NCBI GenBank assembly: GCA_963383645.1
Contig: OY726560.1
Location: forward strand, 147,937,052-148,001,051
Length of the DNA: 64,000 bases
DNA from: Muscardinus avellanarius
Lineage: Eukaryota > Chordata > Mammalia > Rodentia > Gliridae
Direction of reading: 5' to 3'
The notes below the pieces were generated by a model. The model was not told the origin of the DNA. It saw nothing but the letters and a program-made list of their open reading frames with translations, and made no database searches. Within the stretch, counting starts at the first letter, position 1. Every line of letters begins with the position of its first letter. A program made the position numbers and the translations under genes. Shown here piece after piece: positions 14,460 to 61,564 of the stretch.

Positions 14460-14774
14460 ATATATTTTTTTTGGTGCACTGTATTCATACATCATGGTAG
14501 GATACATACTTTTGTAGACATACATGCACACTTTTCCCAGTCATCCCCCACCCAATCCCCACCCCATTCTCTTCCTATCCCTCCCTCCCATGCTTGGCTT
14601 AGTAGTTGACATCTAGTATTATGGCAATTTATCTAAAATTAAAAATGATAATCTCACATAACAGTTTCATTTGTCTGATAGCAAGCTTTTGATGACTTAA
14701 AGATAACATTTCAATATTTCTTTTTGCTTTCGTTCTTACCAGAGAATATTTTTTTTTCTATTTTTTAGGTGAAA

Positions 14775-15490
14775 CTATCATATATTTATATATTTATTTT
14801 TCAGAAAAAAATCTATCCTACTGTGAAATATGGACTCTAGGTACCCAAAACGATCTTGAAAAAGAACAAAGCTAGAAGATATATAGTTTCTGATTTCAAA
14901 CCATATAAAGCTACAATAATTGAAACAGTGTAGTACTATTATGAAGGCAGATATATAAACCATTGGAGTTAAATAAAAGCCTAGAGCTAAATTCTTCCCT
15001 ATATTGTCAAGTTATTTTTGACAAGGTTTCCACGAACATTTGGTGGTGGAAATAATAATCTTTTAACTAAATATAGTTGAAAAATAATAATTACATGAAA
15101 AAATAAAATTGGACCCTTACCTAATCCCATATACAAATAATAACTCAAAATAGATAAAAGACTTAAATATAAATCTTAAGACTATAAACTTTTAGGAGAA
15201 AATCTGGGTCATAAAACCTCACAACATTGAAATTGGCAGTGATTTCTTGGTTATGATTTCAATGGCACAGGCAACAGAGGAGTATACAAACTCCCTAAAA
15301 AAGAAAAAATAATATTGTATATCCAAAGACAATGTAAACAGAGTTAACAGTTACTAATAGAATGGGATAAAATATTTCCAATTGCTATATCTGAAGGTAT
15401 ATTAATATTCCAACTAGAAATCCTAAAAATTAACAACAATAAAGGCAAACAATACCCTTTAGAGATAGGTAAAAGACTAACATAAATAAT
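14775..15490 (+). repeat. Inverted older L1 ORF2 segment inside chimeric copy 1
   Basis: On the + strand (opposite to ORF1) the bases follow L1 ORF2 in order: 'gatcttgaaaaagaacaaag', 'ctgatttcaaaccatataaagctacaat', 'tatttttgacaagg', 'tggacccttacctaatccca' and 'agataaaagacttaaatata'. All frames are closed, so it was already decayed when captured or has decayed since. The segment is homologous in all three copies, so it belongs to the element. Confidence 0.85.
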
Positions 15491-15545
15491 GAATCTCCAC
15501 AGATAATCAATCTTAGTTGTCTGTTGGATGGAAAATCTTGTTTCT

Positions 15546-16428
15546 TTAGTTCTGGAGTGTGTTACCTATTTCTTCTTTGTAGTTAATCTCTTTGAGTATT
15601 TTCTCTAGTGCTGGTTTTGAATACATAAATTCCTTCAGTTTCTGTTTGTCATGGAAGCTTCTTATTTCTCCATCTAATTTGATAGAAAGTTTTGCTGGGT
15701 AGGAAATTTTTGGCTGGAAGTTGTTTTCTCTCAGAGTTTGGAATATGTTACTCCAAGCCCTTCTGGCTCTCATGACTTGGTTTGGGAAGTCTGGAGTGAT
15801 TCTAATTGGTTTGCCTCTGAGTGTCACTTGGCCCTTTGTTTTTGTTGCCTTTAAGATTCTCTGCTTGGCTTCCACATTGGTCATTTTGACAATTATGTGG
15901 CGTGGGGATCCTCTTCTCCGATCCTGTCTAAAGGGAGTTCTATAAGTTTCCTGGACCTGTGTATCGACCTCTTGCTCTATGTCTGGAAAATTTTCTGCTA
16001 TTACTTCCTTGAAGAGATTGTTGATCACTTTGGTTTCACTTTCTTTTCCCTCCTCTATTCCAATTATTCTTAGGTTAGCTCTCTTAAATTGGGCCCATAT
16101 TTCTTCAATATCAGATTCCTGCTGTCGGATATTTTTTTCTAGATTAGAAACTATGCGTTCATTTTTGGATTGCTCATCTTCTAAGAGCGAGATTCTGTTC
16201 TCCATGTGGTCTAATCGGTTGTTTGTGCTTTGAATTGAGGCCTTTACTTCATTAATTGCATCCTTTATCTCTTTTTGGCTCTCTCTGAGTTCTTTTCGAA
16301 GCACCTCTATTATTTCTAGTTATTTTCCTGATTTGATCTTCTAGAAATCTCTGATTTTCTGTTTTATCGGGTTCTGATGTTGTGGGGTTGTGGGCATTTA
16401 TTGCTCCAGTATTATTCCTCTTTCCCAT
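15546..16428 (-). pseudogene. L1 ORF1 of chimeric copy 1, frameshifted
   Basis: ORF1p-type RNA-binding protein of a LINE: a trimerising coiled coil, an RRM-like domain (NLRIIGIEEG) and a C-terminal domain (ISYPAKLSI). The ATG is at 16428. A two-base deletion near 16318, relative to copy 2 at about 40563, shifts the frame within the early coiled coil and leaves two overlapping open pieces, 16426-16252 and 16304-15546. Downstream of the shift, about 16 of 251 residues differ from copy 2. Confidence 0.9.
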
Positions 16429-17200
16429 GATTTCAGAAGTTTGTACCTTCTCTGGGTTCTTCCCTTGGGTCACTGTGACTTCACTTAAGGTGTTCTGGAT
16501 CTCGAGTCAGTAGTATCTCAGACCCCACTACTCCTTTACTGGGTTGTAGCACAGAGTCTCCGACCCAGAGAGTCGATAGAGGCTGCTTTAGACTGTGGGG
16601 GGTGCCAGGTTGCATGTTCTCCTATGGTGTGATATCTCAGCCACCGCCCCTCCCCCACTGGGTCAAGTTCTAGGGAGTACAGTAATGGGATTTCTCCTCT
16701 GTGGCCCGCAATTTGACTCACTGTTCTTGAGTACGCAGATGTAGCTGTACTAGACTTGGTGAATTCGGTGCTGCTGCCGCCGGTGGCAATATGGCACCGC
16801 TGCTATGTCCTCGGCTGTGGGGCTGGTGTTTTTCTTCTTGGTTTTGATTTCCACTCTGTATCCCTGCGGCGTGTGCTGAGCTCGGCCACTGGGAGCTTTA
16901 GATGCTCTCTGCGCAGAGAAATCCCGCCTGGCTGTTCCGCAGCTCACCTCAGCTTGCTGTAGCCATCCCGTGAATTTGCCGGTGCCGCTGGCAGTATGGC
17001 GCTGCTGCCGCGTCTGCCGCGGCCTTGGGCGTGAGGCCGGTGTATCTCCTCTTTGGCTCTGTTCTCAGTCTGCTTTCTCTCTGGAGCCTGGTGATTTTTT
17101 GTTTCACTGGTGATGGTGTTTTCTGGCTATGAAAGGTGCTGATTTTGTGGTAATGGAGATTTGTTGTTTTCGGGGCTCTTAAGCCCCACTTTTCTCGGTC

Positions 17201-17217
17201 GCCATCTTCCCGGAAGT
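17201..17217 (-). promoter_or_regulatory. ETS/YY1-like motifs at the 5' end of chimeric copy 1
   Basis: GCCATCTT at 17201-17208 (AAGATGGC on the element strand) is a YY1-type core, and CCGGAAGT at 17210-17217 is an ETS-type core. A YY1 site in this position is known in the human L1 5' UTR, where it sets the transcription start. Function here is inferred. Confidence 0.55.
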
Positions 17218-17218
17218 C

Positions 17219-17790
17219 CTAATAAGGTATATTTGAATAAAACCTGAAAGTGAAAAGAAAGGGGCCCAAATGGGTACTGGGGAAGAGCACTTCACAGGTA
17301 AGATTGGCAGGCAAAGCTCCGGTAGGGAGATTGTGTTTAATCTGTTTTTGAGTAAAAGCAAAGAGCCCAAGTTCTTTAGAGTAGAAGGAAAGGTCATGAG
17401 GTCAGAAAGGGAACAAGAATCACCTGGACCCTGTGGGCTGCCCTCTGACTTTCACTAGTGAGGTTAGAAGACATCGGAGGCTGTGAACAGAGGAGTGAAA
17501 AGTCTCACGTCTTACAGGTTCCTCTGGCTGCTGGAGAAGCACTTAGAGGAGGTAAAGGCAGAAATAGGGACACCTGGGGAGGAAGGGGCAGTAATGTTTG
17601 AGAGGGGATGTTGGTTTAGATAAGGGAAGAAGCAATGGAAATGCCAGTAGGTATTCAGATTCTGGAATCTATATTTTAAAGTTTGCTGAGCAGGATTTTC
17701 TGATGAACTAGGTGTGGGAATGGAAGAACAAGAGAGATACTAAAGTTGATCCAAAGTTTTTGGCCTCAGAAATTAAAGGGATAGACTACT
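17219..17790 (+). repeat. Ancient interspersed repeat, right part
   Basis: It continues the repeat interrupted at 14459. The text 'acctgaaagtg', 'aggtcatgaggtcagaaagg', 'cctctggctgctggagaagc' and 'gatccaaagtttttggcc' follows the order of a long ancient mammalian repeat, diverged and unnamed here. Confidence 0.45.
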
Positions 17791-18315
17791 TGATCTTCAG
17801 TATATATTTGTGAAATGACTTCATTTTTAACATCTGATAATTACAGATGAAAGGATTGATCACTTTTGGCTTCAAAATAATGACTATAATGATTGCTATA
17901 ACATTACTTTTAAATGTTCCTATGACACATTTCTTCCAGTTGGTCAGTTTTTCTTGAATGTGAGGCAAGTTGTATATTTTACTTTTTATTTGCTTGGTAA
18001 TATCTGTTAATGATTGACAATGTATATATGAGGAAAATTGATGTTAAAAGATGGGAGTGAATTTTGATTGTTTTACTTTGTTTACTATACATAGCAATAA
18101 AACTGAGCTATTGATTAAAACTGTTTTAAGCAGTGAAAGAAATTGAAAGTGATTACCACATCAGTTACACCCCATAAAGCTTTAAATAATTATAATAGTA
18201 AAATAAGGATAAGGCAGTGGGAAGTGGGGGAGGGGAACTTATCACCACAGCACAGTGTTTTAGTTCTGCAAGTTTTGTTAGAAAATGGAAATTTTTTTTT
18301 AAAGAATCAATCTTC

Positions 18316-18513
18316 AGCCGGGCATGGTGGCGCACGCTTGTAATCCCTGCACTTGGGAGGTGGAGACAGGAGGATCGCGTAGGTTCGAAGCCAGCCTCAC
18401 TGGCTTAAGAGACCCTGTTTCCAAATAAAAATATAAAACAGGTCTGGGAGTGTAGCCCGGAGGGTTTCCAGGAACCCCCAGTACCACTAAAAAAAAAAAA
18501 AAAAAAAAAAAAA
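18316..18513 (+). repeat. B1-dID-type SINE, subfamily A, full length
   Basis: It runs from 'gccgggcatggtggcgcacg' to 'caggaacccccagtaccac' with a poly-A of about 24 bases. Box B reads GGTTCGAAGCC. AAAGAATCAATCTT before it and AAATCAATCTTT after it suggest the target-site duplication. Short open frames over it are SINE artefacts. Confidence 0.95.
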
Positions 18514-18684
18514 TCAATCTTTCAATCTCAGTCTACTTAGCCTAAAGAGTCAGGACTAAGAAAATAATCCTTTCTCAGGAATAGATCCAAAAATTTTCTA
18601 TCATTCTTACCTATGTTTTGCAAAGATATTTTATCAAAGAACATCTGATAAATCATCTAATAAAGAATAAAAAGTATTTATTTT

Positions 18685-18874
18685 AGGTGGGATTGAGCCA
18701 GGGACATTCTACCTCCAGGCTATAGCCCATGCCTTATTTTATTTTTTGTAAACAGAGTATCACTAGGTTGATGAAAGTCTTACTGGTTGCTGAGGCTGTC
18801 CACAAACCTGCAGTCCTCCTGTCTCAGCCTCCCAAGCACTGCCATTACAAGGGGCACCACCATGCCTGGCTCTT
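18685..18874 (-). repeat. B1-dID-type SINE, diverged
   Basis: A reverse-complement dimer from 'gggattgagccagggacatt' to 'caccatgcctggct', with an extra block in the head. Confidence 0.85.
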
Positions 18875-18879
18875 AATTA

Positions 18880-19082
18880 CTTTTTTTTTTTTTTTTTGGT
18901 ACTGGAGATGGAACCCAGGGGCACTGTACCTCTGAGCTACATCCCCAGCCCTTTTTTATTTTTGAAACAGCGTCTCACTGAGTTGTGAAAGGCCCCGCTA
19001 AGTAGCTGAGGCTGTCCCTGAACCATGATCCTCCAGTCTCGGCCTCCCAAATGCTGGGATTACAAGCGTGTGCCACATGCAA
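18880..19082 (-). repeat. B1-dID-type SINE, subfamily B
   Basis: Poly-T 18881-18897, then 'ggtactggagatggaaccca' through 'gtgtgccacatgc'. It adjoins the previous SINE directly. Confidence 0.92.
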
Positions 19083-19304
19083 AGCTTGACTTTTAATTTC
19101 TTAAAATATTGTGTTATAGTATCCTAGAATGCATATCTTAATTGTTAGATGTAGTTATATTTAAAATTTTTACCTCTTAGCAAAAACACAAATGTGAATC
19201 TATTAATTTTTATAGGACTGTCAACTTATTACCTATATCAATGGGCAAAAATATTGTGAATAATCAAAGATATTTGAAGACAATCATATGATTCATTTTA
19301 ATTC

Positions 19305-19450
19305 AGTTCAACACACTTTCTTTAGCACCTACTCTTGTGCTCTCTCTATATTTATACAGTTCTAGGCACTAATACAAGAATTGAATAAGCACGATTCCTG
19401 TTTTCCAGGAGCTTATGGTCTAATGTGGAAGACAGACAAGTAAAAGATAA
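19305..19450 (+). repeat. Ancient interspersed repeat
   Basis: 'tttagcacctactcttgtgc', 'cagttctaggcactaataca' and 'caggagcttatggtctaatg' match the opening of the same ancient repeat class seen at 14170. Confidence 0.5.
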
Positions 19451-20095
19451 CTTAAATATTATGTAATTGGCTTTTACTTATGATCAAAAAGGAGAAATGA
19501 ATGGAATTTTCCCTCCTACTGCAAAGTTAGAAGACTGGAGAAAATAATATTAAACACTATTTTCAGATATTAAGAACAAGAAACAATGTAGGACTGTGAT
19601 TCCTGATGGAGAGGAAACCAGCAATTAAGGAGTACTCCATCTGCACACAGATTTTGGTCAGTAATGCTGTGAAGAGGAACTTGAACAATGACAAGTGATC
19701 AGAAGGAGTTGATGACACAGAGATTTTAGGTCAGGGAGGCCAAGTCAGTCCTTGAGAGAACGGTCCACACAGAGAAGCAGCGTCAGAAGTTTATGTAGAG
19801 GCCCCGTTGAATCTTTGGCTGTGTGTTACCCACTGTGAACAGGAAACTGCACTAGGCTGAGTAAAGAAAAACGACTGGAAAGTGAAAGGGTAACAATTCT
19901 AAGAACTCACGTGCATTGAGAGACATTTATTTTTTATCATGGTATATGATTTCATTAAGCAGAAGAGTCCTGACTTAGTAGAATTAAATTAGTCGAGATT
20001 TCATCTTTTTTCCTAGAGGTTTTTATTAGCTACAGCACCAGTATCTTAGGTTTGACTAAGTTCTAAGACCACACTGTTAGAAAAATTGAATGAAA
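19451..20095. other. Intronic stretch, no gene seen
   Basis: No open frame of note and no repeat I can name, although it may be the decayed body of the repeat starting at 19305. Confidence 0.4.
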
Positions 20096-20172
20096 AACCA
20101 GACATGATGATACACACCTGTAATCCCAGTACTTGGGAAGCTGAGACAATAGGATCACAAGTGCCCAGCCTT
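20096..20172 (+). repeat. B1-like SINE head fragment
   Basis: 'ccagacatgatgatacacac' to 'gcccagcc' is a diverged 7SL-derived head without a tail. Confidence 0.75.
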
Positions 20173-20264
20173 GCTATAGTCTTTAAACATATTTCACAGA
20201 GTTATCTTTTTGGGGGAAAAACTACCAAATAAATAGTTTTTGAAGAAATTACTGTTAATAATAA

Positions 20265-20266
<2 letters not shown>

Positions 20267-20317
<51 letters not shown>

Positions 20318-20390
20318 GTACTGGAGATTGAACCAGGGTTTTATACATGCTAGGCAAGTGCTCTACCTATAAGCTTATCCTCAGCTCTTT
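20267..20390 (-). repeat. (GT)n followed by ID SINE
   Basis: A GT tract (20267-20316) is followed by the reverse complement of an ID monomer, with 'gagattgaaccagggtttta' and 'catgctaggcaagtgctcta'. The tract probably arose from the ID tail. Confidence 0.85.
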
Positions 20391-20859
20391 TTAAAAATAT
20401 TGTTTTGAGACAGCGTCTATAAAATAGAAGAGAAAATGTTAACTTTTGAATAATGGCAACATAGGAAATACAGCCAAGAAAGTTTGGTGAAGAAGCATTT
20501 TAGGTTATGTTATAATACAGGTTATATCTGAAGAAGAAATAAAAAGAGAGCTATTATATGGATATATCTTTTGCCTTGAGATTAAGAAATATATTATCAA
20601 GAAATTTATACCATATACCACAAACTCCACTGGTGAATGTGACATTAAAACAGTACTTGTCTCTCCAGATTGTCCATAGAGTATACACAAAAGATCCTGA
20701 GCTGATTAAATAGTTCCTTTTGTCAAAATTAAACATCTCATTATATTTATCTTTAAAAGACAATTTTATTTTTATAGCATTTGCAGCCATACTGAACTAA
20801 CCCCACTGAGTTCAGACAAATATTAAAAATTGTTCATAAACTGTGGTCTCTTATATGCA

Positions 20860-21905: not shown

Positions 21906-22289
21906 TTTACTTTTTATCTTTCCATTTAGTTCTTCATTAAGATCATGTCCCTGTGAATCTTTATAAAAGTAGTTGTAAATTCCTGGTCTTCAGTCGCATC
22001 ATCTTTGTCATTTCTGTGCATATTTCAGTTGACCCAATTTCCCCCTTGCCCTAGTTATTTTCACATTTTCAGATGTCTAGTGATTTTGGACTGCATACGA
22101 GACATTGTGTTTACAATTCTGTTGAAGGTTTGAGTTTTGCTATCTTCCTCTAAATAATAGAGACATTGTTTTAGCTAAAGTTATTTTTTACCAGACATTT
22201 ACATTGCTATGGCTCAGATTAAAACCTTGTTTATAACATTTTTATAGGGTGGGTCTATAGTAGTATTTAATATAGGTTATTTTCTTTTT

Positions 22290-22380
22290 ATATATCTGTT
22301 TATTGGTACAATGAAATCACACATTATACTGAGATTCAAAGTGATACAAGCATACACACACACACATATGTAGTGTGTAC
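22290..22380 (-). repeat. L1 3' end fragment with CA repeats
   Basis: 'tttattggtacaatgaaatc' and 'gtgatacaagcatacacaca' are a diverged antisense L1 terminus leading into ATAC/CA simple repeats up to about 22460. Confidence 0.6.
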
Positions 22381-27167: not shown

Positions 27168-27364
27168 TTGTGTGTGTGTGTGTGAGGTACTGGGGTTTCT
27201 GGAAGCCCGTCTACCTCCAGGCTACGCTCCCAGACCTATTTTTTATATTTTTATTTGGAAACCAGGTCTCTTAAGCCAGCGTGGCTGGCTTCGAACCTGT
27301 GCGATCCTCCTGTCTCCGCCACCCAAGCGTGGGGATTACAAGCATGCGCCACCATGCCCGGCTA
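27168..27364 (-). repeat. B1-dID-type SINE, subfamily A
   Basis: A short GT run, then 'ggtactggggtttctggaag' through 'ccaccatgcccggct', with box B intact on minus. Confidence 0.93.
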
Positions 27365-30240: not shown

Positions 30241-30440
30241 GGAAGTTAAATGTTTAGCCTCCCTTTTTCCTCATTTTTTAATTGGGAAGATTTGAGGTGG
30301 GAAAGAAGAGTGCTCTATATTGGGCTCCTACAAACTCCCAGAACCTTTTATATTTTATTACTACTCAACACTAAGGTTACCAAAATACACTTGAGTTGTG
30401 ATTTTTTTTAAGGCACTCTAAATAGTAACATAGCAGACAA

Positions 30441-30606
30441 TTTTAAACATTTCATTTTCTTTACCCCAAAAACTTTTTTCTAGAGTGGTTTTTACGTCTT
30501 ATATAACCAATATTTGTGCTCATTTAATACAACAGGAAGCATGTTTCAGAAATAAATCTGTGAAATCAACAGCATGATATTTTCATTCTGAGCATTTATA
30601 AGATAG
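30441..30606 (+). repeat. Direct duplication, copy 1
   Basis: About 165 bases from 'ttttaaacatttcattttct' to 'gagcatttataagata' recur at 32199-32364 with roughly three base differences. Confidence 0.95.
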
Positions 30607-31079
30607 TACAGTTTTGTGAAGAGCATAGTTGCAATGGAAACTGCATGAAAATTAATCTACATTTGCTGCTGAGAGATGCTGAATGCATTTTAGGTAGTCT
30701 TAAAGCACTGCTGTTGCCTCTTCAATATAAAAGTCATCCAGTTAAATTGGTCATAGAGGTCACACTGATGGTTCTTAAATTTATAAGAAGGCATAAACAT
30801 TATGAGACTAAAATACCATAAACTTCTCCAAAATATATGCTGATGAATATGTATGTATATTTACACATACATATTTTTATTTGATCAAATATATGTTTAT
30901 GGATATATGTATTGAATATATATCTGCATACACATATATAAATTGTGAGAATAGGTTAGATTGAATAAAAATTTTAAACACTACCAAGATGTAAAATGTT
31001 AGAGTCTCCTTTCTCATCACTGACTCTGATGTACAAGGTCTGTCTCATCATTGTTAAAAGTTTGTTGTATATCTTCCAG

Positions 31080-31649: not shown

Positions 31650-32198
31650 CATTTATTTTGCTCTTTGTTTTCAACTAGAACTAATTCAAAGTGAACAAGT
31701 GTAACATATCTCATTCAGCTCTAAAGTTTCTGCAAAACGAGAGTCAAATAATTATGTATTGGTACCACACCTATATTATTTTATTCCCTTTTTAAAAATT
31801 TATAAAATATAAAAATCCCCATTTAATTCCAAGATCATTCCTAGCTATATATCTGGTTGAATATTTCTGTTGACTCTGCATCTTTTCTGTAGAACTTCAT
31901 TATTTATTCACTAGCAGAAGTGTCTCTATAGCATCGATTATGTAGCCTTCAAGCTAATAGAGAGCTCTTGTTTTGTGAATTCTTGGCACATACTGTAGTT
32001 ACTCAAGCTCCTAAGTAAATATAGGGAAAATTTGTTGACATTCTCAATTGATTATTTTAAAAGTTGCATTCAAATATAAATGTACCTATTTGCCTCTAAA
32101 TTTTGAAATAATTTTGAATATTATATAGACCATATACAACATTTCAGTGATCGTTTCCTAAATTCTTTCATATCTTTGATATATTTTAAACATTTCAT
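31650..32198. other. Intronic stretch, no gene seen
   Basis: AT-rich with no recognised feature, ending in a short repeated 'taaacatttcattt' that leads into the duplicated block. Confidence 0.4.
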
Positions 32199-32364
32199 TT
32201 TTAAACATTTCATTTTCTTTACCCCAAAAACTTTCTTCTAGAGTGGTTTTTACGTCTTATATAACCAATATTTGTGCTCATTTAATACAACAGGAAGCAT
32301 GTTTCAGAAATAAATCTGTGAAGTCAACAGCATGATATTTTTATTCTGAGCATTTATAAGATAT
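32199..32364 (+). repeat. Direct duplication, copy 2
   Basis: Near-identical to 30441-30606, same orientation, start-to-start distance 1,758 bases. Differences seen: one T/C in the T-run, 'aaatcaac' versus 'aagtcaac', and 'ttcattc' versus 'ttattct'. No poly-A or matching flanks suggest retroposition. Confidence 0.95.
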
Positions 32365-32381
32365 AACAGATATGACATATT

Positions 32382-34286: not shown

Positions 34287-34760
34287 TGCTGGGAATTGAA
34301 CCTAGAAGTGTTCTTTCTCTGAATTATACTTTTTTTAACTTTCCCTGAATTATACTTTTTTTTTTTTTAACAAGATCTCAACTGGGCGTGGTGGTGCATG
34401 CATGTAATCCCAGCATTCAGGAGGCTGAGACCAGAGGATGGCAGTTTGCAGACAGCCTTAGCTACTCAGTGAGGCCTTCTACAACTTAGTGAGACCCTGT
34501 TTCAAAATAAAGAATAAAGAAGAAAATAGGGCAGGGGGTGTAGCTTGGAGGTCGAATGCCCCTGGCTTCCATCCCCAGACCCACAAACAACAACAACAAC
34601 AACAAAAACAACAACAACAACAACAACAATAACAACAACAAGATCTCATTAAGGTGTAGAAGGCTTCACAAAGTTGTTGAGGCTGGTCATGAATCTACAA
34701 TTTTCCTATCTCAGCCTTCCAAGTACTGGGTTTATAGGTGTGTACTACCACACCAGATTT
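34287..34760 (-). repeat. Minus-strand SINE split by a plus-strand SINE
   Basis: An old minus-strand dimer ('gatgctgggaattgaaccta' ... 'accacaccagattt') is interrupted at 34381-34636 by a plus-strand subfamily B SINE ending in (CAA)n. The 12-bp target duplication AACAAGATCTCA is at 34369-34380 and 34637-34648. Confidence 0.92.
34381..34636 (+). repeat. B1-dID-type SINE, subfamily B, with (CAA)n tail
   Basis: It runs from 'actgggcgtggtggtgcatg' to 'ccatccccagaccca', then CAA repeats (34586-34636). The poly-Asn open frame over the tail is not a gene. Confidence 0.93.
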
Positions 34761-38701: not shown

Positions 38702-39029
38702 AGATCTTTGTTTTTATTTTTTTATTTTTATTGGTGCACTGTATTCATACATCATAGTGGGATACATACTTTTGTAGACATACATGCACACATTGCCCAG
38801 TCAGCCCCCACCCGATCCCCACCCCATTCTCTCCCTATCCCTTTCTCCCATGCTTGGCTTAGTAGTTGACATCTAGTATTATGGCAATTTATCTAAAATT
38901 AAAAATGATAATCTCACATAACAGTTTCATTTGTCTGATACCAAGCTTTTGATGACTTAAAGATAACATTTCAATATTTCTTTTTGCCTTCTTTCTTACC
39001 AGAGAATTTTTTTTCTATTTTTTAGGTGA

Positions 39030-39740
39030 AACTATCATATATTTATATATTTATTTTTCAGAAAAAAATCTATCCTAATATGGAATATGGACTCTAGGTA
39101 CCCAAAACGATCTTGAAAAAGAACAAAGCAAGAAGATATATATTTTCTGATTTCAAACCATATAGAGCTACAATAATTGAAACAGTGTAGTACTATTCTA
39201 AAGGCAGATATATAAACCATTGGAGTTAAATAAAAGCCTAGAGCTAAATTCTTCCCTATATTGTCGTTATTTTTGACAAGGTTTCCACGAACATTTGGTG
39301 GTGGAAATATTAATCTTTTAACTAAATATTGTTAAAAAATAATAATTACATGAAAAAATAAAATTGGACCCTTACCTAATCCCATATACAAATATTAACT
39401 CAAAATAGATAATAGACCTAAATATAAATCTTAAGATTATAAACTTTTAGGAGAAAATCTGGGTCATAAAACCTCACAACATTGAAATTGGCAGTGATTT
39501 CTTGGTTATTTCAATGGCACATGCAACAGAGGAGTATACAAACTCCCTAAAAAATAAAAAAATTATTGTATATCCAAAGACAATGTAAACAGAGTTAACA
39601 GTTACTAATAGAATGGGATAAAATATTTCCAAATGCTATATCTGAAGGTATATTAATATTCCAACTAGAAGTCCTAGAAATTAACAACAATAAAGGCAAA
39701 CAATACCCTTTAAAGATAGGTAAAAGACTAACATAAATAA
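39030..39740 (+). repeat. Inverted older L1 ORF2 segment inside chimeric copy 2
   Basis: Same order of L1 ORF2 blocks as in copy 1, on the strand opposite to ORF1, with small indels relative to it (for example at about 39264 and 39508). One 61-residue frame on minus is chance. Confidence 0.85.
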
Positions 39741-39796
39741 TGAATCTCCACAGATAACCAATCTTAGTTGTCTGTTGGATGGAAAATCTTGTTTCT

Positions 39797-40681
39797 CTAG
39801 TTCTGGAGTGTGTTACCTATTTCTTCTTTGTAGTTAATCTCTTTGAGTATTTTCTCTAGCGCTGGTTTTGAAGACATAAATTCCTTCAGTTTCTGTTTGT
39901 CATGGAAGCTTCTTATTTCTCCATCTAATTTGATAGAAAGTTTTGCTGGGTAGGAAATTTTTGGCTGGAAGTTGTTTTCTTTCAGAGTTTGGAATATGTT
40001 ACTCCAAGCCCTTCTGGCTCTCATAACTTGTTTTGGGAAGTCTGGAGTGATTCTAATTGGTTTGCCTTGGAATGTCACTTGGCCCTTTGCTTTTGTTGCC
40101 TTTAAGATTCTCTGCTTGGCTTCCACACTGGTCATTTTGACAATTATGTGGCGTGGGGATCCTCTTCTCCGATCCTGTCTAAAGGGAGTTCTATAATTTT
40201 CCTGGACCTGTGTATCAACCTCTTGCTCTATGTTTGGAAAATTTTCTGCTATTACTTCCTTGAAGAGATTGTTGATCCCTTTGGTTTCACTTTCTTTTCC
40301 CTCCTCTATTCCAATTATTCTTAGGTTAGCTCTCTTAAAATGGGCCCATATTTCTTCAATATCAGATTCCTGCTGTCTGATATTTTTTTCTAGATTAAAA
40401 ACTATGCATTCATTTTTGGATTGCTCATCTTCTAAGAGCGTGATTCTATTCTTCATGTGTTCTAATCGGTTGTTTGTGCTTTGAATTGAGGCCTTTACTT
40501 CATTAATTGCATCCTTTATCTCTTTTTGGCTCTCTCTGAGTTCTTTTCGAAGCACCTCTATTATTTCTACAGTTATTTTCCTGATTTGATCTTCTAGAAA
40601 TCTCTGATTTTCAGTTTTATCGGGTTCTGATGTTGTGGGGTTGTGGGCATTTATTGCTCCAGTATTATTCCTCTTTCCCAT
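39797..40681 (-). CDS. L1-type ORF1 protein, intact (294 aa)
   Basis: RNA-binding, trimer-forming ORF1p of a LINE-1-derived element; such proteins coat the element RNA and act as nucleic-acid chaperones in the cytoplasmic RNP. The start is the ATG at 40681 (MGKRNNTGAI); an in-frame GTG 15 codons upstream is not a eukaryotic start. Residues about 27-113 are heptad-rich coiled coil (LRKELRESQKEIKDAINEVK). An RRM-like domain begins at RANLRIIGIEEG (117-128). The conserved basic stretch FRQDRRRGSPRHIIVKM is at 167-183, and the C-terminal domain has ISYPAKLSI (242-250) and ALEKILKEI (274-282). It is shorter than the ~340 residues usual for human ORF1p, mainly in the coiled coil. No stop or frameshift. 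No ORF2 follows; the stop is succeeded by the inverted segment. Whether it is expressed is unknown. Confidence 0.9.
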   Translation of the reverse strand: MGKRNNTGAINAHNPTTSEPDKTENQRFLEDQIRKITVEIIEVLRKELRESQKEIKDAINEVKASIQSTNNRLEHMKNRITLLEDEQSKNECIVFNLEKNIRQQESDIEEIWAHFKRANLRIIGIEEGKESETKGINNLFKEVIAENFPNIEQEVDTQVQENYRTPFRQDRRRGSPRHIIVKMTSVEAKQRILKATKAKGQVTFQGKPIRITPDFPKQVMRARRAWSNIFQTLKENNFQPKISYPAKLSIKLDGEIRSFHDKQKLKEFMSSKPALEKILKEINYKEEIGNTLQN

Positions 40682-41455
40682 GATTTCGGATGTTTGTGCC
40701 TTCTCTGGGTTCTTCCCTTGGGTCACTATGACTTCACTTAAGGTGTTCTGGATCTCAAGTCAGTAGTATCTCAGACCCCACTACTCCTTTACTGGGTTGT
40801 ATCACAGAGTCTCTGACCCAGAGAGTCGATAGAGGCTGCTTTAGACTGTGGGGGGTGCCAGGTTGCACGTTCTCCTATGGTGTGATATCTCTGCCACCGC
40901 CCCTCCCCCACTGGGTCAAGTCCCAGGGAGTACAGTACTGGGATTTCTCCTCTGTGGCCCGCAATTTGACTCACTGTTCTTGAGTACTCAGATGTAGCTG
41001 TACTGGCCTCGCTGAATTCGGTGCTGCTGCCGCCGGTGGCAATATGGCGCCGCTGCTACGCCCTTGGCTGTGGGGCTGGTGTTTTTCTTCTTGGTTTTGA
41101 TTTCCACTCTGAATCCCTGCAGCGTGTGCTGAGCTCAGCCACTGGGAGCTTTAGATGCTCTCTGCGCAGAGAAATCCCGCCTGGCTGTTCCGCAGTGGCT
41201 CACCTCGGCTTGCGTAGCTGTCCTGTGAATTTGCCGGTGCCGCCGGCAGTATGGCGCTGCTGCAGCGTCTGCCGCGTCCTCGGGTGTGAGGCCGTTTATC
41301 TCCTCTGTGGCTCTGTTCTCAGTCCGCTTTCTCTCTGGAGCCTGGTGATTTTTTTGTTTCTCTGGTAATGGTGTTTTCTGGCTGTGAAAGGCGCTGATTT
41401 TGTGGTAATGGAGATTTGTTGTTAGCGGGGCTCTTAAGCCCCGATTTTCTCGGTC

Positions 41456-41472
41456 GCCATCTTCCCGGAAGT
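41456..41472 (-). promoter_or_regulatory. ETS/YY1-like motifs at the 5' end of chimeric copy 2
   Basis: GCCATCTT at 41456-41463 (AAGATGGC on the element strand) and CCGGAAGT at 41465-41472 lie within the first 18 bases of the element. Their position parallels the YY1 start-site element of other L1 promoters. Activity is inferred. Confidence 0.55.
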
Positions 41473-41489
41473 CAGATCTTTGTTTTTTA

Positions 41490-43009: not shown

Positions 43010-43770
43010 ATTTTTCAAAAGTCAGAAGAGTATAAAACGATACCTAGAGGAATCTCACCGCATCCCCTCTGTATTTCATTCCATTTTCACTCACTGCTGC
43101 AGAGAGGCATCTCCACTAGTTTATGGATTATCTTCCCTGTGTCTTTTTACAAAAATTACTGGTTAAATATGTATTCTTTTCTCTTTCACAAACAATAACA
43201 CCCTGTTTATAATCTTTCTATCCTGTTGTTTTTCATTTGATAATGCATCCTCGAACTCACTCTATGTTAGTTAAAAAGAGATTATTTTCATTTTTATAGA
43301 TGTATAATACTTCATCATAATGGGTGTACTAAACTATTTAATCAGTTTCTTATGAATGGATACAGAGATTTTTTCCAGTATTTTGTTATTAAAATAATAC
43401 TGCAGCCGGGCGTGGTGGCGCACGCTTGTAATCCCAGCATTTGAGAGGTTGAGACCAGACGATCGCGGTTCGTGGACAGCCTCAGCTACTTAGTGAGGCC
43501 CTCTGCAACTCAGTGAGACCTGGTTTCAAAATAAAGAATAAAAAATAGAGCGGGGGCGGGGGGTGTAGCTCGAAGGTCAAATGCTCCTGGGTTCCATCTC
43601 CAGATCCGCAAAAATAAAATAATACTGCAGCAAATAACCTTGAACATAAGTTGTTTTGTTTTTACACAGCACATTACTAGTAATAGAATGGCAAGGTCAA
43701 AGGAAAATGCAAATACAGTTTTATTAGCATCACACTCTTTATTGAGATTGTACCATTTTGAATTTCTTTT
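43010..43770 (-). mobile_element. Ancient L1 fragment, interrupted by SINE
   Basis: 'tttttatagatgtataatacttcatcataatgg' and 'tttcttatgaatggatacag', with continuation after the SINE at 43631, fit an old antisense L1 3' region. Confidence 0.55.
43406..43615 (+). repeat. B1-dID-type SINE, subfamily B, with target duplication
   Basis: 'ccgggcgtggtggcgcacgc' to 'ccatctccagatccgcaaaa'. A perfect 15-bp duplication AAAATAATACTGCAG is at 43391-43405 and 43616-43630. Confidence 0.95.
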
Positions 43771-47629: not shown

Positions 47630-47820
47630 TTTTTTTTGGGTGGTACTGGGGTTCCTGGAAACCCTTCTACCTCCAGGCTATACTCCCAAACCTATGTTTT
47701 ATATTTTTATATGGAAACAGGGTCTCTTAAGCCAGCGAGGTTGGCTTCGAACCTGCGTGATCCTCCTGTCTCCACCTCTCAAGCGCGGGGATTAAAAGCG
47801 TGCGCCACCACGCCTGGCTT
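47630..47820 (-). repeat. B1-dID-type SINE, subfamily A
   Basis: Directly adjacent to the previous SINE. 'ggtggtactggggttcctgg' through 'gccaccacgcctggct', near consensus. Confidence 0.94.
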
Positions 47821-54155: not shown

Positions 54156-54159
54156 TTAA

Positions 54160-56465
54160 GTCATAAAACTCCTAAGTAGGAAAATTAACCGAAATTATCT
54201 GGGTAAAAATGCATCTCAGACTGAATTTAATGACTCTGGAAGTAAGACTTTGGCTCTAGAGAAAGGCAGTTTTTAAACAAGTGTGTATTCATTAAATAAG
54301 TTCATTTAATTTGCCATATATTTAGTTATAACCACCGTGCAGACTGGCCTAAAGTAATACTGATGTGGCTCTGAGGTTCCCGGCTTGTCACTGCAGCTCT
54401 TTATGCAACCAGAGTTCTCTTTGAAACCACTTTCTAGTGTTCAGCTTCCCATTGGGGGTAATAGTAAAATGTATAGACAGTTTGCTGCGTCTGAATGCGG
54501 GAGCATCAGCATAAGTATAGGGTGCAGCCTGGCCCCTGGTCTTTTCTTCTTAGCTTGGCCCAATTAGTGAAATGAGAAGGAAAAGTTCATCTCTAGGTAT
54601 GCACAGTTAGGATGATTTCTATTCTATCCGTTTTTTCAATGGTAGTGTTTTCTTCTGTAAAAGCAACAAAAATTGAGAGTACTTTGTTTGCTTGCCTGGC
54701 TGTTTTTCCTTGAAACTTACAAAACCATGGTTGATATTCAAAAAGTCTTAAGGTTGAGGTCATTGCATTGTAATGAATTAGAATCTAGAAAACAGAGTCA
54801 ATTGGGCTTGGTAATTTATTGTAGATTGGGAATTATGCTGAGGACAATCTGTTGAGTCTCTTACCAGATGGGCACGCAGTAATTCAGCTGGCTGGCTGCA
54901 GATGGACAGACGGCATACACTGGACAGGTCCTGTCCTAAGCTTTTGCAGAGGACAAAGTCCCTTTCTGTTCTGTCCCAATCAATCATATATAACTGTCAC
55001 ACAAATATGAATAAATCATTTATTCGCAGTCAGGAAAACAGTAGTTCAGTGACATGATTAGAAGTAAATATGAAACAATTTTAATCCTGGGTGTATTAGG
55101 GTAAGGTGTTCTGTCATTCAAATATTTATAGGTTAATATTTGAAACTGAAGTTGTTCAATGTACTAAAAATATTTTATCATTTGAAGCTGATCTGTTTTA
55201 GGTGAACTTTTATGGTTTTTTTTTTACCCCTCTTCTTTCTTTTATCATACTGAAAAGTACTTAAGTGAAGCAAATATATTTGCCTCTCAAAATCTAGTTC
55301 AGAACATCTGTCCAGGGAATTTTTTTTCAGGATGTGAACTAAAAATGAAAAATATTTTTTGTCATTAGCCTGAAGCAGGGATTAAGTCTTGGGGTTTTGT
55401 GGCCCTTTTATCTTAAGACAACAATGCTTTTTTATGTAGGAAAAGGAAGGATGAAGTTATCTTTGAAGATGTTTGAGACAGGAATGCATAGCTAGTTGCA
55501 TTTGTACTTTCTAAACATTGCATATTCAGGTCGTTTTTCTTGGACTAATAGACAAATAATCATACAGCAAAGCAGGTTTCTTTTCATATTTAGCTTACTG
55601 ATATGACAAAAAGAATATTGAGACAATACTAATATGTGAAAAAAAATGATATCAGAACTTTCCTGTCTTTGATAAGGAAGAATCAAAATTTTATTTGTTG
55701 TTTATTTATGGAGGGTCACATTTATTAAGCATGAAGAAAAATTTTGCAGGGTAATGCATATTATAAGAACATATTTATTTGATTGTAGGAAAAAAAAGAA
55801 GTATAACAAAGAAAGCCATGACTGATGGTGAAGTTCTCTCCCAGCTGTTGCTGTGAAAATTATGAAGAGAAAAATCTGTCAGAATTGAATGCTTATTTAA
55901 ACAACTGCATTTGATACAAGGCAAATTTATTTTTAAAAGGCCTTTAAGAAATCAACAGCACCGGAATTCAAAGTAGCGATGTGAAATTAATAACAATGAC
56001 TGACATAAGTAGCTGCTCCAAACAAGGCCCAGAGAGTAAAGAAAATGAGTTTATTTTTTTCTCTTCCAACCAGAAGAGCTGCACTACTCTAATAATTCTA
56101 AGTTAATTATTTTCATACTTGTAATAAATTGTCATTCCAATTAGCTGGTAAATAAAATCTTGTTAAAATAAAACCCTCTTAATCTACATCTAATAGATGC
56201 AAATATAGTTACTAATGAATATTTCTGGATATGGCTCTGTGATTACTGAAAGTATTTGCAAGGGCAAGCCACCATCAAACAGGGCGTTGTTGAAACCGTT
56301 TTTGTGAATGTTGGACAAGAAGCTCCTGATTGGGTATAGGTAGCTCAGGGATAGTCATAGGGGCATGGTAATATCAGCCCTAAAATTTAGTGCCAACTAA
56401 AACTCTTAAAATTTCAGGGTTATATTTATTAAAACATTTTTACTCATCTAAAATCTCTTTTATTA
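54160..56465. other. Intergenic stretch, repeat-poor
   Basis: About 2.3 kb with no repeat or gene recognised. Within it, 55780-56140 has balanced, non-repetitive sequence with several TAATTA-type sites and could be a conserved non-coding element. Short frames (54385-54567, 54673-54855) show no family resemblance. Confidence 0.4.
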
Positions 56466-56467
56466 TT

Positions 56468-56682
56468 TTTTTTGTACTAAGGATTGAACTCAGGGGCATT
56501 CTACCTCCAAGCTACATCCACAGCCCTTTTTATTTTCTGTTTTGAAATAGGATCTTGCTACGTTGCTGAGAGTCTCAGAGTCTCACTAAGTTGCTGAGGC
56601 TGTCCTCAATTCTATGAACCTCTTGCCTTAGCCTCCTAAGTACTGGGATTTCTGGCATGCACCATCACTTTTGGCTTAAAAC
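56468..56682 (-). repeat. B1-dID-type SINE, older
   Basis: 'gtactaaggattgaactcag' through 'gcatgcaccatcacttttggct', diverged from the other copies. Confidence 0.87.
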
Positions 56683-56689
56683 CTCCTTA

Positions 56690-57295
56690 TTGGGATTATA
56701 TTTTGAGACCAAGTATATATTGCAGTATCTTTTAAGAGGAACCCAGGTTTTCACTAATGATCTGACCTGTGTGTGGTTATAGAAAGCAGTGGGCCTTTTT
56801 ACAGCTTAATTGCTTGGGCCTCACTCATAATATACTTAAAAATATATTGCTTTTCAAAAATTTTTGTAATAAAATTCAACAAATGTTATAAAATTTGAGA
56901 ATTATATAATTCATCCTTTTACCAGAAAACATTGACTAATCATAATCAGCAAATATGAATCTTTAATTAACTGAGAAAGAATAATTTTCAGCAGTCCTTG
57001 AGGGAAAAAGGGGGGATAAATTGGTATAAAAGAATTGAATAGTATTAAAAATTCACCATCTGGATATCTCTTGAAAGTAATGCCTATTCATCCCATTTTA
57101 TTATACTTTCTAGAGATGTGCTTATTTTCAGTACTGCTCTGTGATCATTGATATTTAAGGTGATAACCAAAGGATGGCAATGTCTTCAAATACCAAATAA
57201 TAAGAAGAATTATATTCATTTCAGTACCCGCTACGACAGAAATCTAGACTAATGAAAAAATTCCAGAAAGATCAATGTGTGGAAATTCTGATTAA
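56690..57295. other. Intergenic stretch, no gene seen
   Basis: AT-rich with no recognised feature. Confidence 0.4.
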
Positions 57296-57299
57296 CTTG

Positions 57300-57650
57300 A
57301 ATTTAGCACCCTTGCTCATTTCTTCCCCGTCTGTCCTTTCTTCCATCTCTCCATCAGCTTGGCTCCTGCTGGAGGTGTTCTGTCCCGTCCTCCTCATGCT
57401 CGCCAGCCACAGGGCCTTCTGCACCCAGGCTGACCATGCTCCCTCTGCCTGGAGGCTCCTCCCCTTGACCTCTGCATGGCTGCCTGCTTCCCTCAGTCAG
57501 GATCAGCCAAGTCATCTACTCAGAGAAGAGAAACCTCCTTGAAAGGGTCAACCTAAAGTAGCCCCACAGCCACATTGTCACAAACACTGGCTTAATTATC
57601 TTCATACTCCCATAAACAGAGGTTCTATGACAGCAGTGATACTGTCTTTC
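57300..57650 (+). repeat. L2 LINE fragment
   Basis: 'ccagccacagggccttctgc', 'catgctccctctgcctggag', 'ccttgacctctgcatggctg', then 'gttctatgacagcagtgata' follow L2 order. The 96-residue frame over it is an L2 artefact. Confidence 0.65.
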
Positions 57651-57654
57651 ACAC

Positions 57655-57865
57655 ACTGTGTGTGGGGGTGGGGGATGGAACCCAGGGGCATTCTACCTCT
57701 GACCTTCACCCCCCTGCCCCACTTTATTTTTTATTTTGAAGCAGGGTCTCCCGAAGTTGCCAAGGATCTTGCTAAGTTGCTGAGGCTGTCTTTGAACCCA
57801 TGATCCTCCTGTTTCAGCCTCTCAATTACTGGGATTACAAGCATGAGCCACCACCCCAGACTGTA
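57655..57865 (-). repeat. B1-dID-type SINE
   Basis: 'gggggtgggggatggaaccc' through 'agccaccaccccagact', with a GT scrap before it. Confidence 0.88.
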
Positions 57866-57869
57866 CACT

Positions 57870-58584
57870 ACCTCTTCCTTAGTGGCATATGTGATATGTT
57901 CGAGTAAATATGTGTTGAAATATGGTTTGAATATGAACAGCCCATATTTATTAAGGATTTAAGCATAAATTATTGATTCTCTAGTTAAACCAGAGGATAC
58001 ATTTATTGCTGATTATCTCTTTTGGTTGAATTACTCTTTTCTCTCATTTTTTTACTCTTTCAGAAGCTCTGTTTACTTAGCTGAGAAAACGGTAATGATA
58101 ATTTTGCTAATTTCAGAACCTATCTATGTAGAACAACTATTAAAAGCATTGAAAATAAACTAGAATATTATGGTCCCATATCCCATTTTGGAAGAAGTTG
58201 TGGATCTCCCCGTGGTCATTTATAGCCCACTATTATCAAGCTGTTGATCAGCAGATAATGGTTATGAATACTTACGTTCCACCAGCTGTTAGAATAGAGT
58301 GAAAATTGTAAGTTGCTTGCAAGCTATGAATGCGCATTAGAGTACCTTAAAAGCATTATTTCTCATGGTAATAGAAAGTTTTGAAATGTGTTTGCTCTGT
58401 GGTTTATTCAGTCTTTCTGATCTGAAACACAAAGTTTAAGTAATCCTGGTTTTATTTGGCACCATATTTAGAAAAATATATGAGTGCCATCTGCTGGCAA
58501 TTCCTAGTACCACATTGAGCCCAACATTGGAGGGACTGGTTTTTTTGTGTGCTCAAGTTTGAGAATGACAAATCCTTATAGGAT
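57870..58584. other. Intergenic stretch, no gene seen
   Basis: No repeat or gene recognised. Confidence 0.4.
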
Positions 58585-58587
58585 GAT

Positions 58588-58692
58588 CCATCCTCTCTGC
58601 CTCCCTTTACCCCATCCTCCTTTCCTCCAACCCTTCTTCCCTTTTTCCTTTTCCCTTCCCCCTCCCTCCTTCCCATCCTTTCTTTCCTCCTT
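58588..58692 (+). repeat. Polypyrimidine tract
   Basis: About 100 bases almost entirely C and T, with few purines. Such mirror-rich tracts can form triplex DNA. The 74-residue minus-strand Gly/Arg/Lys frame is its shadow. Confidence 0.9.
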
Positions 58693-58775
58693 CATTTGTA
58701 GTAGATAAAATTTAAATCCCTATATGTAGTTTCCAGTTATTCAAATATATATATATAAAAATCTCGACTTCCAGG

Positions 58776-58783
58776 AAGATGGC
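58776..58783 (+). promoter_or_regulatory. YY1-like core at the 5' end of chimeric copy 3
   Basis: AAGATGGC begins 11 bases into the element. The adjacent ETS-like core seen in copies 1 and 2 is altered here (CTTCCAGG). Confidence 0.5.
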
Positions 58784-58794
58784 GACCGAGAAAA

Positions 58795-58814
58795 GCGGGG
58801 CTTAAGAGCCCCGC
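58795..58814 (+). other. 8-bp perfect hairpin near RNA 5' end of chimeric copy 3
   Basis: GCGGGGCT, loop TAAG, AGCCCCGC. The counterpart in copy 2 (about 41425-41444) and copy 1 (about 17174-17193) keeps at least seven of the pairs, so the structure is a family feature. Confidence 0.75.
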
Positions 58815-59552
58815 TAACAACCAATCTCCATTACCACAAAATCAGTGCCTTTCATAGCCAGAAAACACCATCACCAGAGAAACAAAAAAATCACCAGGCT
58901 CCAAGAGAAAGCAGACTGAGAACAGAGCGCAGAGCCACAGAGGAGATACACCGGCCTCATGCCCGAGGACGTGGCAGCAGCGCTTTACTGCCGGCGGCAG
59001 CGGCGAGTTCACCGGACGGCTACAGCGAGCTGAGGTGAGCCGCTGCGGAACAGGCAGGCGGGACTTCTCGGTGCAAGGAGCATCTAAAGCTCCCAGTGGC
59101 TGAGCTCAGCACACGCTGCAGGGATTCAGAGTGGAAATCAAAACCAAGAAGAAATACGCCAGCCTCAGGGCCGAGGGCGTAACAGAGGCGTCATATTGCC
59201 ACCAGCGGCAGCAGCAGCGAATTCACCGAGTCTAGTACAGCTACATCTGCGTACTCAAGAACAGTGAGTCAAATTGTGGGCCACAGAGGAGAAATCCCAG
59301 TACTGTACTCCCTGGGACTTGACCCAGTGGGGGAGGGGCGGTGGCTGAGATATCACAACATAGAACGTGCAACCTGGCACCCCCCAGAGTCTAAAGCAGC
59401 CTCTATCGACTCTCTGGGTCGGAGACTCTGTGATACAACCCAGTAAAGGAGTAGTGGGGTCTGAGATACTACTGACTCGAGATCCAGAACACCTTAAGTG
59501 AAGTCATAGTGACCCAAGGGAAGAACCCAGAGAAGGCACAAACTTCCGAATC

Positions 59553-60470
59553 ATGGGAAAGAGGAATAATACTGGAGCAATGAATGCCCACAAACCCACA
59601 ACACCAGAACCCAATAAAACAGAAAATCAGAGATTTCTAGAAGATCAAATCAGGAAAATAACTGTAGAAATAATAGAGGTGCTTCGAAAAGAACTCAGAG
59701 AGAGCCAAAAAGAGATATAGGATGCAATTAATGAAGTAAAGGCATCAATTCAAAGCATGAACAACCGATTAGACCACAGGGAGAACAGAATTTCGCTCTT
59801 AGAAGATGAGCAATCCAAAAATGAACGCATAGTTTCTAATCTAGGAAAAAATATCCGACAGCAGGAATCTGACATTGAAGAAATATGGGCCCATTTTAAG
59901 TGAGCTAACCTAAGAATAATTGGAATAGAGGAGGGAAAAGAAAGTGAAACCAAAGGGATCAACAATCTCTTCAAGGAAGTAATAGCAGAAAATTTTCCAA
60001 ACATAGAGCAAGAGTTTGATACACAGGTCCAGGAAACTTATAGAACTCCCTTTAGACGGGATCGGAGAAGAGGATCCCCACGCCACATAATTGTCAAAAT
60101 GACCAATGTGGAAGCCAAGCAGAGAATCTTAAAGGCAACAAAAACAAAGGGCCAAGTGACATTCAGAGGCAAACCAATTAGAATCACTCCAGACTTCCCA
60201 AACCAAGTCATGAGAGCCAGAAGGGCTTGGAGTAACATATTCCAAACTCTGAGAGAAAACAACTTCCAGCCAAAAACTTCCTACCCAGCAAAACTTTCTA
60301 TCAAATTAGATGGAGAAATAAGAAGCTTCCATGACAAACAGAAACTGAAGGAATTTATGCCTTCAAAACCAGCGCTAGTGAAAATACTCAAAGAGATTAA
60401 CTACAAAGAAGAAATAGGTAACACACACCAGAACCAGAGAAACAAGAGTTTCCATCCAACAGACAACTAA
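59553..60470 (+). pseudogene. L1 ORF1 of chimeric copy 3, degenerate
   Basis: It aligns with the intact ORF1 of copy 2 from its ATG at 59553. Two in-frame stops interrupt it: TAG at 59718-59720 in the coiled coil and TGA at 59901-59903 just before the RRM-like domain. The ancestral stop (TAG in copy 2) has become CAG, so the last open piece (60099-60470) reads on to 60470. Confidence 0.92.
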
Positions 60471-60479
60471 GATTGGTTA

Positions 60480-61255
60480 TCTGTGGAGATTCATTATTTA
60501 TGTTAGTCTTTTACCTATCTCTAAAGGGTACTGTTTGCCTTTATTGTTGTTAATTTTTAGGATTTCTAGTTGGAATATTAATATACCTTCAGATATAGCA
60601 TTTGGAAATATTTTATCCCTTTCTTTTAGTAACTGTTAACTCTGTTTACATTGTCTTTGGATATACAATATTTTTTTTTTATTTTTTAGGGAGTTTGTAT
60701 ACTCTTCTGTTGCCTGTGCCATTGAAATCATAACCAAGAAATCACTGCCAATTTCAATGTAGTGAGGTTTTATGACCCAGATTTTCTCCTAAAAGTTTAT
60801 AGTCTTAAGATTTATATTTAGGTCTATTATATATTTTGAGTTAATATTTGTATATGGGAATAGGTAAGGGTCCAATTTTATTCTTTTCCATGTAATTATT
60901 ATTTTTCAACAATATTTAGTTAAAAGATTATTATTTCCACCACCAAATGTTCGTGGAAACCTTGTCAAAAATAACCTGACAATATAGGGAAGAATTTAGC
61001 TCCAGGCTTTTATTTAATTCCAATGGTTTATATATCTGCCTTTAGAATAGTACTATACTGTTTCAATTATTGTAGCTTTATATGGTTTGAAATCAGAAAA
61101 TATATATCTTCTAGCTTTGTTCTTTTTCAAGATCATTTTGGGTATCTAGAGTCCATATTCCATATTAGGATAGATTTTTTTTCTGAAAAATAAATATATA
61201 AATATATGATAGTTTCACCTAAAAAAATAGAAAAAAATATTCTCTGGTAAGAAAG
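60480..61255 (-). repeat. Inverted older L1 ORF2 segment inside chimeric copy 3
   Basis: On the minus strand it follows L1 ORF2 in order, matching the segments at 14775-15490 and 39030-39740. Its recurrence shows it is part of the element and not an independent insertion. Confidence 0.85.
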
Positions 61256-61564
61256 AAAGTAAAAAGAAATATTGAAATGTTATCTTTAAGTCATCAAAAG
61301 CTTGGTATCAGACAAATTAAACTGTTATGTGAGATTATCACTTTTAATTTTGGATAAATTGCTATAATACTAGATGTCAACCACTACGCCAAGCATGGGA
61401 GGGAGGGATGGGGAGAGAATGGGGTGGGGATCGGGTGGGGGCTGACTGGGCGAAATGTGCATGTATGTCTACAAAAGTTTGTATCCCACTATGATGTATG
61501 AATACAGTGCACCATTAAAAAAATAAAAAATATACATATATTTGTATATACATATAAAAATCTC

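Follow-up and report, generated by a model that had tools for sequence, protein, structure and literature searches.

HAL1 (half-L1) elements are known mainly from old families, and twin-primed (5'-inverted) L1 insertions carry an inverted segment of open reading frame 2 (ORF2) upstream of their 3' end. Earlier HAL1s are described as keeping only ORF1 and depending on the L1 enzyme in trans (PMC5322556, PMC5753468, PMC3627910). The guinea-pig HAL1 is said to have kept the coding capacity of ORF1 for 29-44 million years (PMC3627910), and the 5' and 3' untranslated regions (UTRs) of L1 have been replaced by unrelated sequence in evolution (PMC5753468). The family considered here is a HAL1 of Muscardinus avellanarius in which a fragment of ancient L1 ORF2, in antisense, follows ORF1. 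It was recognised from three copies (A, B and C) in a stretch of 64,000 nucleotides (contig OY726560.1, positions 147,937,052 to 148,001,051), hereafter the window.

These elements are assigned to HAL1 because they present an L1-derived ORF1, no sense ORF2, an A-rich tail with target-site duplications, and multiplication as a family of their own. As described for mammalian HAL1s, they derive from L1, carry ORF1 only, have an A-rich tail and target-site duplications, and presumably rely on the L1 enzyme in trans. They differ from the same descriptions in the antisense ancient ORF2 piece of the 3' UTR, which is present also in a young L1 of the same genome; compared by description, they also stand out by copies as close as 0.2% to the majority sequence. 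The guinea-pig HAL1, likewise compared by description (PMC3627910), is similar in being a rodent lineage with ORF1 coding capacity. A replaced UTR is shared with the UTR-swapped L1 lineages, but, in contrast to what is reported for them, the piece recruited here is a decayed, reversed L1 ORF2 common to L1 and HAL1 (PMC5753468). Unlike in twin-primed L1 insertions, the junctions recur throughout the family and it is the whole unit that multiplies, and unlike autonomous L1s, the window copies have no sense ORF2. Among the papers listed by full-text searches of an open-access subset of the literature, none was seen to describe a HAL1 with an antisense ORF2 segment, and novelty is not claimed.

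Architecture of the three window copies

Copies A, B and C align end to end over about 2.75 kb each, and their unrelated flanks begin at the element ends. The identity in local alignments is 95.5% between B and A and 93.2% between B and C. In element orientation, the three copies present a CpG-rich 5' UTR of about 790 nucleotides (nt), the L1 ORF1, about 35 nt of further L1 sequence, the antisense piece of ancient L1 ORF2, about 215 nt, an L1 3' end of approximately 140-150 nt (84% identical to that of an old L1) and an A-rich tail. The antisense middle was identified as L1 ORF2 by tblastn (E = 5.5e-9, 27% amino-acid identity, many stops) and shows 59% DNA identity to L1 ORF2 over 318 columns. 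No sense ORF2 was found in the three copies, the decayed antisense one being the only ORF2 in them, and the 215 nt that separate it from the L1 3' end gave no named match. The ORF1 of copy B encodes an L1 ORF1 protein (ORF1p), as indicated by the Pfam families PF02994 (E = 1e-26) and PF17490 (E = 6.6e-23) and by LINE-1 ORF1P in the PDB (E = 2e-58).

Copy A (14470..17218, minus strand, with its 5' end at 17217-17218) comprises the 5' UTR (16429..17217), an ORF1 broken by a private 2-nt deletion (15546..16428), the antisense piece (14844..15510, far end approximate), the stretch matching nothing named between this piece and the L1 3' end (14610..14843, approximate) and the L1 3' end (14470..14609), all on the minus strand. 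The junction of the ORF1-side L1 sequence with the antisense piece lies between 15510 and 15511. Copy B (38729..41473), also with all its parts on the minus strand, has an open ORF1 of 294 codons plus stop (39797..40681), the antisense piece at 39090..39757 (approximate limits, placed by means of the alignment of the family) and, at 38729..38882, the L1 3' end (inner end approximate). In copy C (58766..61517, plus strand throughout), ORF1 is broken by stops (59553..60437), and the antisense piece and the L1 3' end are located at 60478..61145 (ends approximate) and 61363..61517 (inner end approximate).

The target-site duplications measure 14 nt with one mismatch in A (17219..17232 on the 5' side, 14446..14459 on the 3' side), 14 nt exact in B, and about 13 nt exact, within a 20-nt AT-rich match, in C. 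Since the flanks are unrelated and each copy has a target-site duplication, A, B and C are three independent insertions. The preliminary description of this stretch had proposed one architecture for the three elements, which the end-to-end alignment and tblastn support, and duplications of 13-14 bp on all of them, as found here. Its proposal that they arose as complete units by target-primed reverse transcription agrees with the duplications, the unrelated flanks and the A-rich tails.

At least two subfamilies in the genome

At least two subfamilies can be told apart within the family, with the window copies in the older one. A 1-kb query from the 3' part of copy A gave 2,520 first-look candidates in the genome, and the 40 that were scored all match over 967 or more of the 1001 bases, with 96-100% identity. 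With 2,520 copies assumed for the genome, about 0.06 copies would be expected in a window of this kind, and three within 64 kb are unusual. The old-subfamily set consisted of 42 copies, namely A, B, C and the 39 other best-scoring loci. By a strict rule 36 of the 42 are full length, and 38 reach the 5' end when L012 and L031, each with a private internal deletion or insertion, are counted. Concerning the other four, L022 starts at position 168, L034 at 419 and L039 at 414, and L032 holds an inversion; this last copy has its 5' part inverted, as in twin priming.

Divergence and ORF1 counts refer to the 36 strict full-length copies only. Outside CpG, they diverge from the majority row by 1.3% on average (0.6-3.3%, with copy C the highest), and the internal junctions are fixed across all 36 in the alignment. 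Of the 36 copies, 28 have a target-site duplication of 9 nt or more (a few of these matches are A-rich and weak), four have one of 7 nt only, and none was found in the remaining four. ORF1 is open in 14/36, ending at codon 295 in ten copies and running without a stop through the 885 nt read in the other four. At L030, the target-site duplication of a HAL1 falls inside another HAL1.

Transduced flanks reveal which copies have multiplied. In L028, the 3' flank of L018 sits between the element's own end and its own target-site duplication, and a smaller portion of this flank is present in L029. In the same arrangement, L024 contains transduced flank of L035. The tree joins L035 and L024 (100/99) and does not join L018 and L028. 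Complete copies act, then, as sources, and there are at least two source copies. Moreover, variants common to many old copies are distributed inconsistently, as if there had been sequence exchange or several concurrent sources.

The younger subfamily was retrieved with a copy adjoining an L1 (L055/L072), which gave 2,034 candidates; the 40 scored match at 99-100% over 1000-1001 bp. L072 had been considered an old copy, which was rejected, as it groups with these 99-100% matches, the youngest subfamily found. Seven young copies were studied, six of the best-scoring loci plus L072. All seven start no more than 14 nt from the 5' end of the element and have an open ORF1 of 305 codons, whereas ORF1 in the older subfamily ends mostly at codon 295. 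They differ by 6 to 22 substitutions (0.2-0.8%) from their majority row of 2,763 columns, and target-site duplications were seen by eye in 6/6 (L072 outside this count). Furthermore, among 68,929 candidates for the ORF1 protein of L072, the best 131 were scored, and all of them lack stops and are 97-100% identical, although they are partly open by selection, being the best-scoring. The 20 loci sampled from these 131 all extend past the ORF1/antisense junction, with an adjacent substitution in one of them, and the sampled best ORF1 matches are therefore HAL1s.

The share of full-length copies was compared with that of L1. Of 23 L1 3' ends followed upstream, no more than six extend as far as ORF1, including L056, more diverged and doubtful, and L065, which reaches only the end of ORF1. 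The HAL1 share (38/42) is higher than this, also after a crude length correction, in an after-the-fact comparison where the groups differ in age, length and choice, two of the 23 L1 stretches contain runs of N, and the 42 HAL1s are the three window copies plus 39 best-scoring loci.

These counts bear on several suggestions of the preliminary description. The high proportion of full-length elements that it noted in the window extends to the copies examined across the genome, both for old copies (36/42 strict, 38/42 reaching the 5' end) and for young ones (7/7 within 14 nt). The HAL1-like family it proposed has the same internal junctions in the 36 aligned copies and the 20 young loci, not different ones in each copy, and has many candidate copies (2,520 and 2,034, with 40/40 scored loci confirming in each search). 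Divergence, by which it recommended dating the family, is 1.3% outside CpG for old copies and 0.2-0.8% from the majority rows for young ones.

The antisense piece in L1s and sister elements

The HAL1 ORF1 shares 84-94% DNA identity with the ORF1 of L1s that have a sense ORF2. In an old L1 (L050 and L051), an ORF1 86% identical to that of HAL1 is followed by a sense ORF2 and a 3' end 84% identical to that of HAL1, and the antisense piece is absent. Across the HAL1 family, L1 similarity stops 34-35 nt past ORF1, and in the 17 L1 loci read at this point it ends at HAL1 position 1711-1712. The window also contains a comparison L1 (63012-63768, minus strand), older and 5' truncated, whose 3' UTR has no antisense piece; the best other copies of its group are 93% identical, among 12,367 candidates.

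Four sister elements, L076-L079 (C3:136801000, C13:38984199, C1:239631700 and C3:131353900), have an ORF1 end 93.6-96.3% identical to that of HAL1, followed by the region between the ORFs, roughly 190-200 nt from the start of a sense ORF2 and then an antisense stretch. This stretch is about 120 nt longer than in HAL1 at its ORF-side end, the HAL1 ORF1/antisense junction differs from the junction in the four elements, and the L1 3' end is present in two of the four within the stretch fetched. They may represent another half-L1 family, derived from the same lineage of L1. In the ORF1 tree, HAL1 groups with them and with one sense-ORF2 L1, L085 (100/97). The sense ORF1-ORF2 L1s closest to the sister elements are 90-94% identical to L085 and form no tight group. 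Three other L1-like loci (L073, L074 and L075) match across the ORF1/ORF2 border and then show other internal breaks, without the antisense piece.

The antisense piece itself is carried by a young L1 with an open ORF2 frame. A search with the ORF2 protein gave 120,770 candidates, the best 150 of which were scored; 147 of these have no stop in the matched part and 65 have an open frame of exactly 1278 codons. In one young L1 with a 1278-codon ORF2, the end of ORF1 matches young HAL1 at 93.6% over 419 nt, the sense ORF2 comes next, and the antisense piece begins 36 nt past the end of ORF2 (stop read by eye). This piece is 89.6% identical to that of young HAL1 over 442 columns and was read to HAL1 position 2304. 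The junction of the ORF2 end with the antisense piece is spanned in 40/40 scored loci (best 40 of 1,572 candidates); 21 of these also belong to the 150 ORF2 loci, and the 1278-codon frame is present in 13 of the 21. Because the piece lies behind ORF2, with the junction in 40/40 loci, the inverted segment is 3' UTR material common to HAL1 and a young L1. The idea that the middle is host DNA from beside a founder insertion was dropped once the piece turned up behind the ORF2 of young L1.

The suggestion that the inverted ORF2 segment is part of the element must be qualified in this light. It is fixed in HAL1, but it is not peculiar to it, as it is also found behind the ORF2 of young L1. The preliminary description had also held that copies with a sense ORF2 between ORF1 and the 3' end would speak against it, and the young L1, with its ORF1, sense ORF2 and antisense piece, is in part such a copy.

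Other repeats of the window comprise a direct repeat of 179 nt (30438-30616 and 32196-32374, 96% identical and 1758 nt apart) and short interspersed elements (SINEs) at 5421-5603, 27181-27363, 47637-47819, 34357-34538 and 43381-43562. The latter resemble what we take to be B1-ID composites of squirrel-, dormouse- or beaver-type rodents, and they point to a rodent as host.

Probable origin of the lineage and possible role of ORF1

The family is probably a HAL1 lineage that shares with L1 a 3' UTR containing the antisense piece, that arose by loss of ORF2 from such an L1, and that is mobilised in trans. The 3' UTR of an L1 would have acquired an ancient L1 fragment in antisense, and HAL1 would have arisen from the antisense-bearing L1 by internal loss of ORF2, the direction from L1 to HAL1 being presumed. 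A long-lived ORF2-deletion derivative would be the simplest account of HAL1, with a lineage running beside its L1, splitting into subfamilies and apparently active until very recently. Given the complete source copies, HAL1 transcripts probably originate from the element's own 5' UTR. Its RNA, with the L1 5' UTR and ORF1 and no ORF2, could make ORF1p, which the element may itself use, and L1 ORF2p would copy this RNA at A-rich nicked sites by target-primed reverse transcription. The young L1 would be the provider of ORF2p in trans.

Several points weigh against this account. The sequence of just one young L1 was read, as two stretches lacking the extreme 3' end and the 5' UTR. The antisense piece starts about 145 nt further in for this L1 than for HAL1, and about 120 nt further out in the sister elements; given these differing start points, the present L1 is not the direct parent of HAL1. 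The HAL1 5' UTR is only 59% identical to that of the single old L1 compared, the tree of the 539-nt ORF1 end is weakly supported at its inner nodes, and the enzyme supply in trans is something we infer rather than observe. The divergence of about 10% between the antisense pieces of young L1 and young HAL1 points to HAL1 as an old side lineage and not a fresh deletion.

The opposite order of events is unlikely. Here HAL1 would have come first, as an ORF1 unit joined to DNA with the antisense piece and an L1 3' end, and L1 would have taken this 3' UTR later by recombination or template switching. This would suit the length of the antisense piece, longest in the sister elements, longer in HAL1 and shorter in young L1, and its absence from the old L1s examined. 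Nevertheless, the sister elements keep the start of a sense ORF2 beside the antisense stretch, which fits deletion from an ORF2-bearing parent, and the sense-ORF2 L1 L085 falls inside the clade of HAL1 and sister elements for ORF1. Far less credible, and largely refuted, is that the piece in young L1 is a nested insertion or an independent capture, with the chimera as an invention of HAL1 alone. Reading a single L1 in letters leaves some room for it, but the 40/40 scored loci have the same junction, mostly with equal score, 21 of them were found independently by the ORF2 protein, and the piece is 89-90% identical to HAL1, against 98-99% for a recent HAL1 insertion. There is hardly any chance that the copies are separate twin-primed L1 insertions or duplicated DNA blocks. 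End inversions are common in L1, and L032 shows one among the fetched copies; however, all aligned copies have the same junctions, a sense ORF1 lies upstream of the inverted piece, and each copy has different flanks and its own target-site duplication. Private twin-priming junctions are ruled out by the junctions common to the 36 aligned copies and the 20 young loci.

Returning to the loss of ORF2 from an antisense-bearing L1, this account is compatible with a HAL1 that makes no use of its own ORF1 protein, ORF1 being carried along while the RNA is copied passively. We regard such passivity as possible but doubtful. Among 14 variants common to at least four old copies, 10 are non-synonymous and 4 synonymous, in keeping with the neutral expectation (9.7 to 3.5), and the old and young majority sequences differ by 13 non-synonymous and 9 synonymous changes (neutral non-synonymous share 0.73, P = 0.105), both in line with a passive ORF1, as is an ORF1 open in only 14/36 old copies. 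The old and young majorities differ by 2.6% in ORF1, 3.7% in the antisense and adjoining part (P = 0.18) and 6.8% in the 5' UTR. On the other hand, no disabling ORF1 change shared by descent was found among the old copies. A shared frameshift, considered for four copies with equal ORF1 lengths, was rejected in favour of independent deletions or indels, and the codon 101 stop of three copies may be recurrent and not inherited, since all three show an identical C-to-T substitution in a CGA codon. ORF1 is also open in the young sources (7/7 copies, and the best 131/131 matches, selected as good), and the guinea-pig HAL1 is said to have kept its ORF1 over the period mentioned above (PMC3627910).

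Between HAL1 and the sister elements, 16/500 positions differ in ORF1 against 43/514 in the antisense piece (P = 0.0004), a point against passivity; this lower ORF1 divergence is no proof that selection acted inside HAL1, since the route from one to the other may pass through L1. Differences between HAL1 and old L1 ORF1 show a strong third-position bias (21, 18 and 46 at codon positions 1, 2 and 3), on a path that includes L1 evolution. The lasting openness of ORF1 in HAL1 suggests selection.

A more speculative idea, to which we give little weight, is that the antisense 3' UTR is a useful module traded between HAL1 and its L1, possibly passed by the parasite to its provider. It would then have been kept for helping RNA uptake or full-length copying by the L1 enzyme, and the pair would offer a present-day example of how a half-L1 and its provider evolve by way of the 3' UTR they have in common.

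The proteins of L1 act preferentially on the RNA that encodes them. One genome holds here a very young HAL1 with an open ORF1 and a very young L1 with an open ORF2, with common 3' UTR material, and this pair makes it testable whether HAL1 depends on the ORF1p it encodes and how, despite that preference, ORF2p reaches a partial L1. The case also shows that an odd junction within a repeat can stem from inherited UTR sequence and not from a new kind of element.

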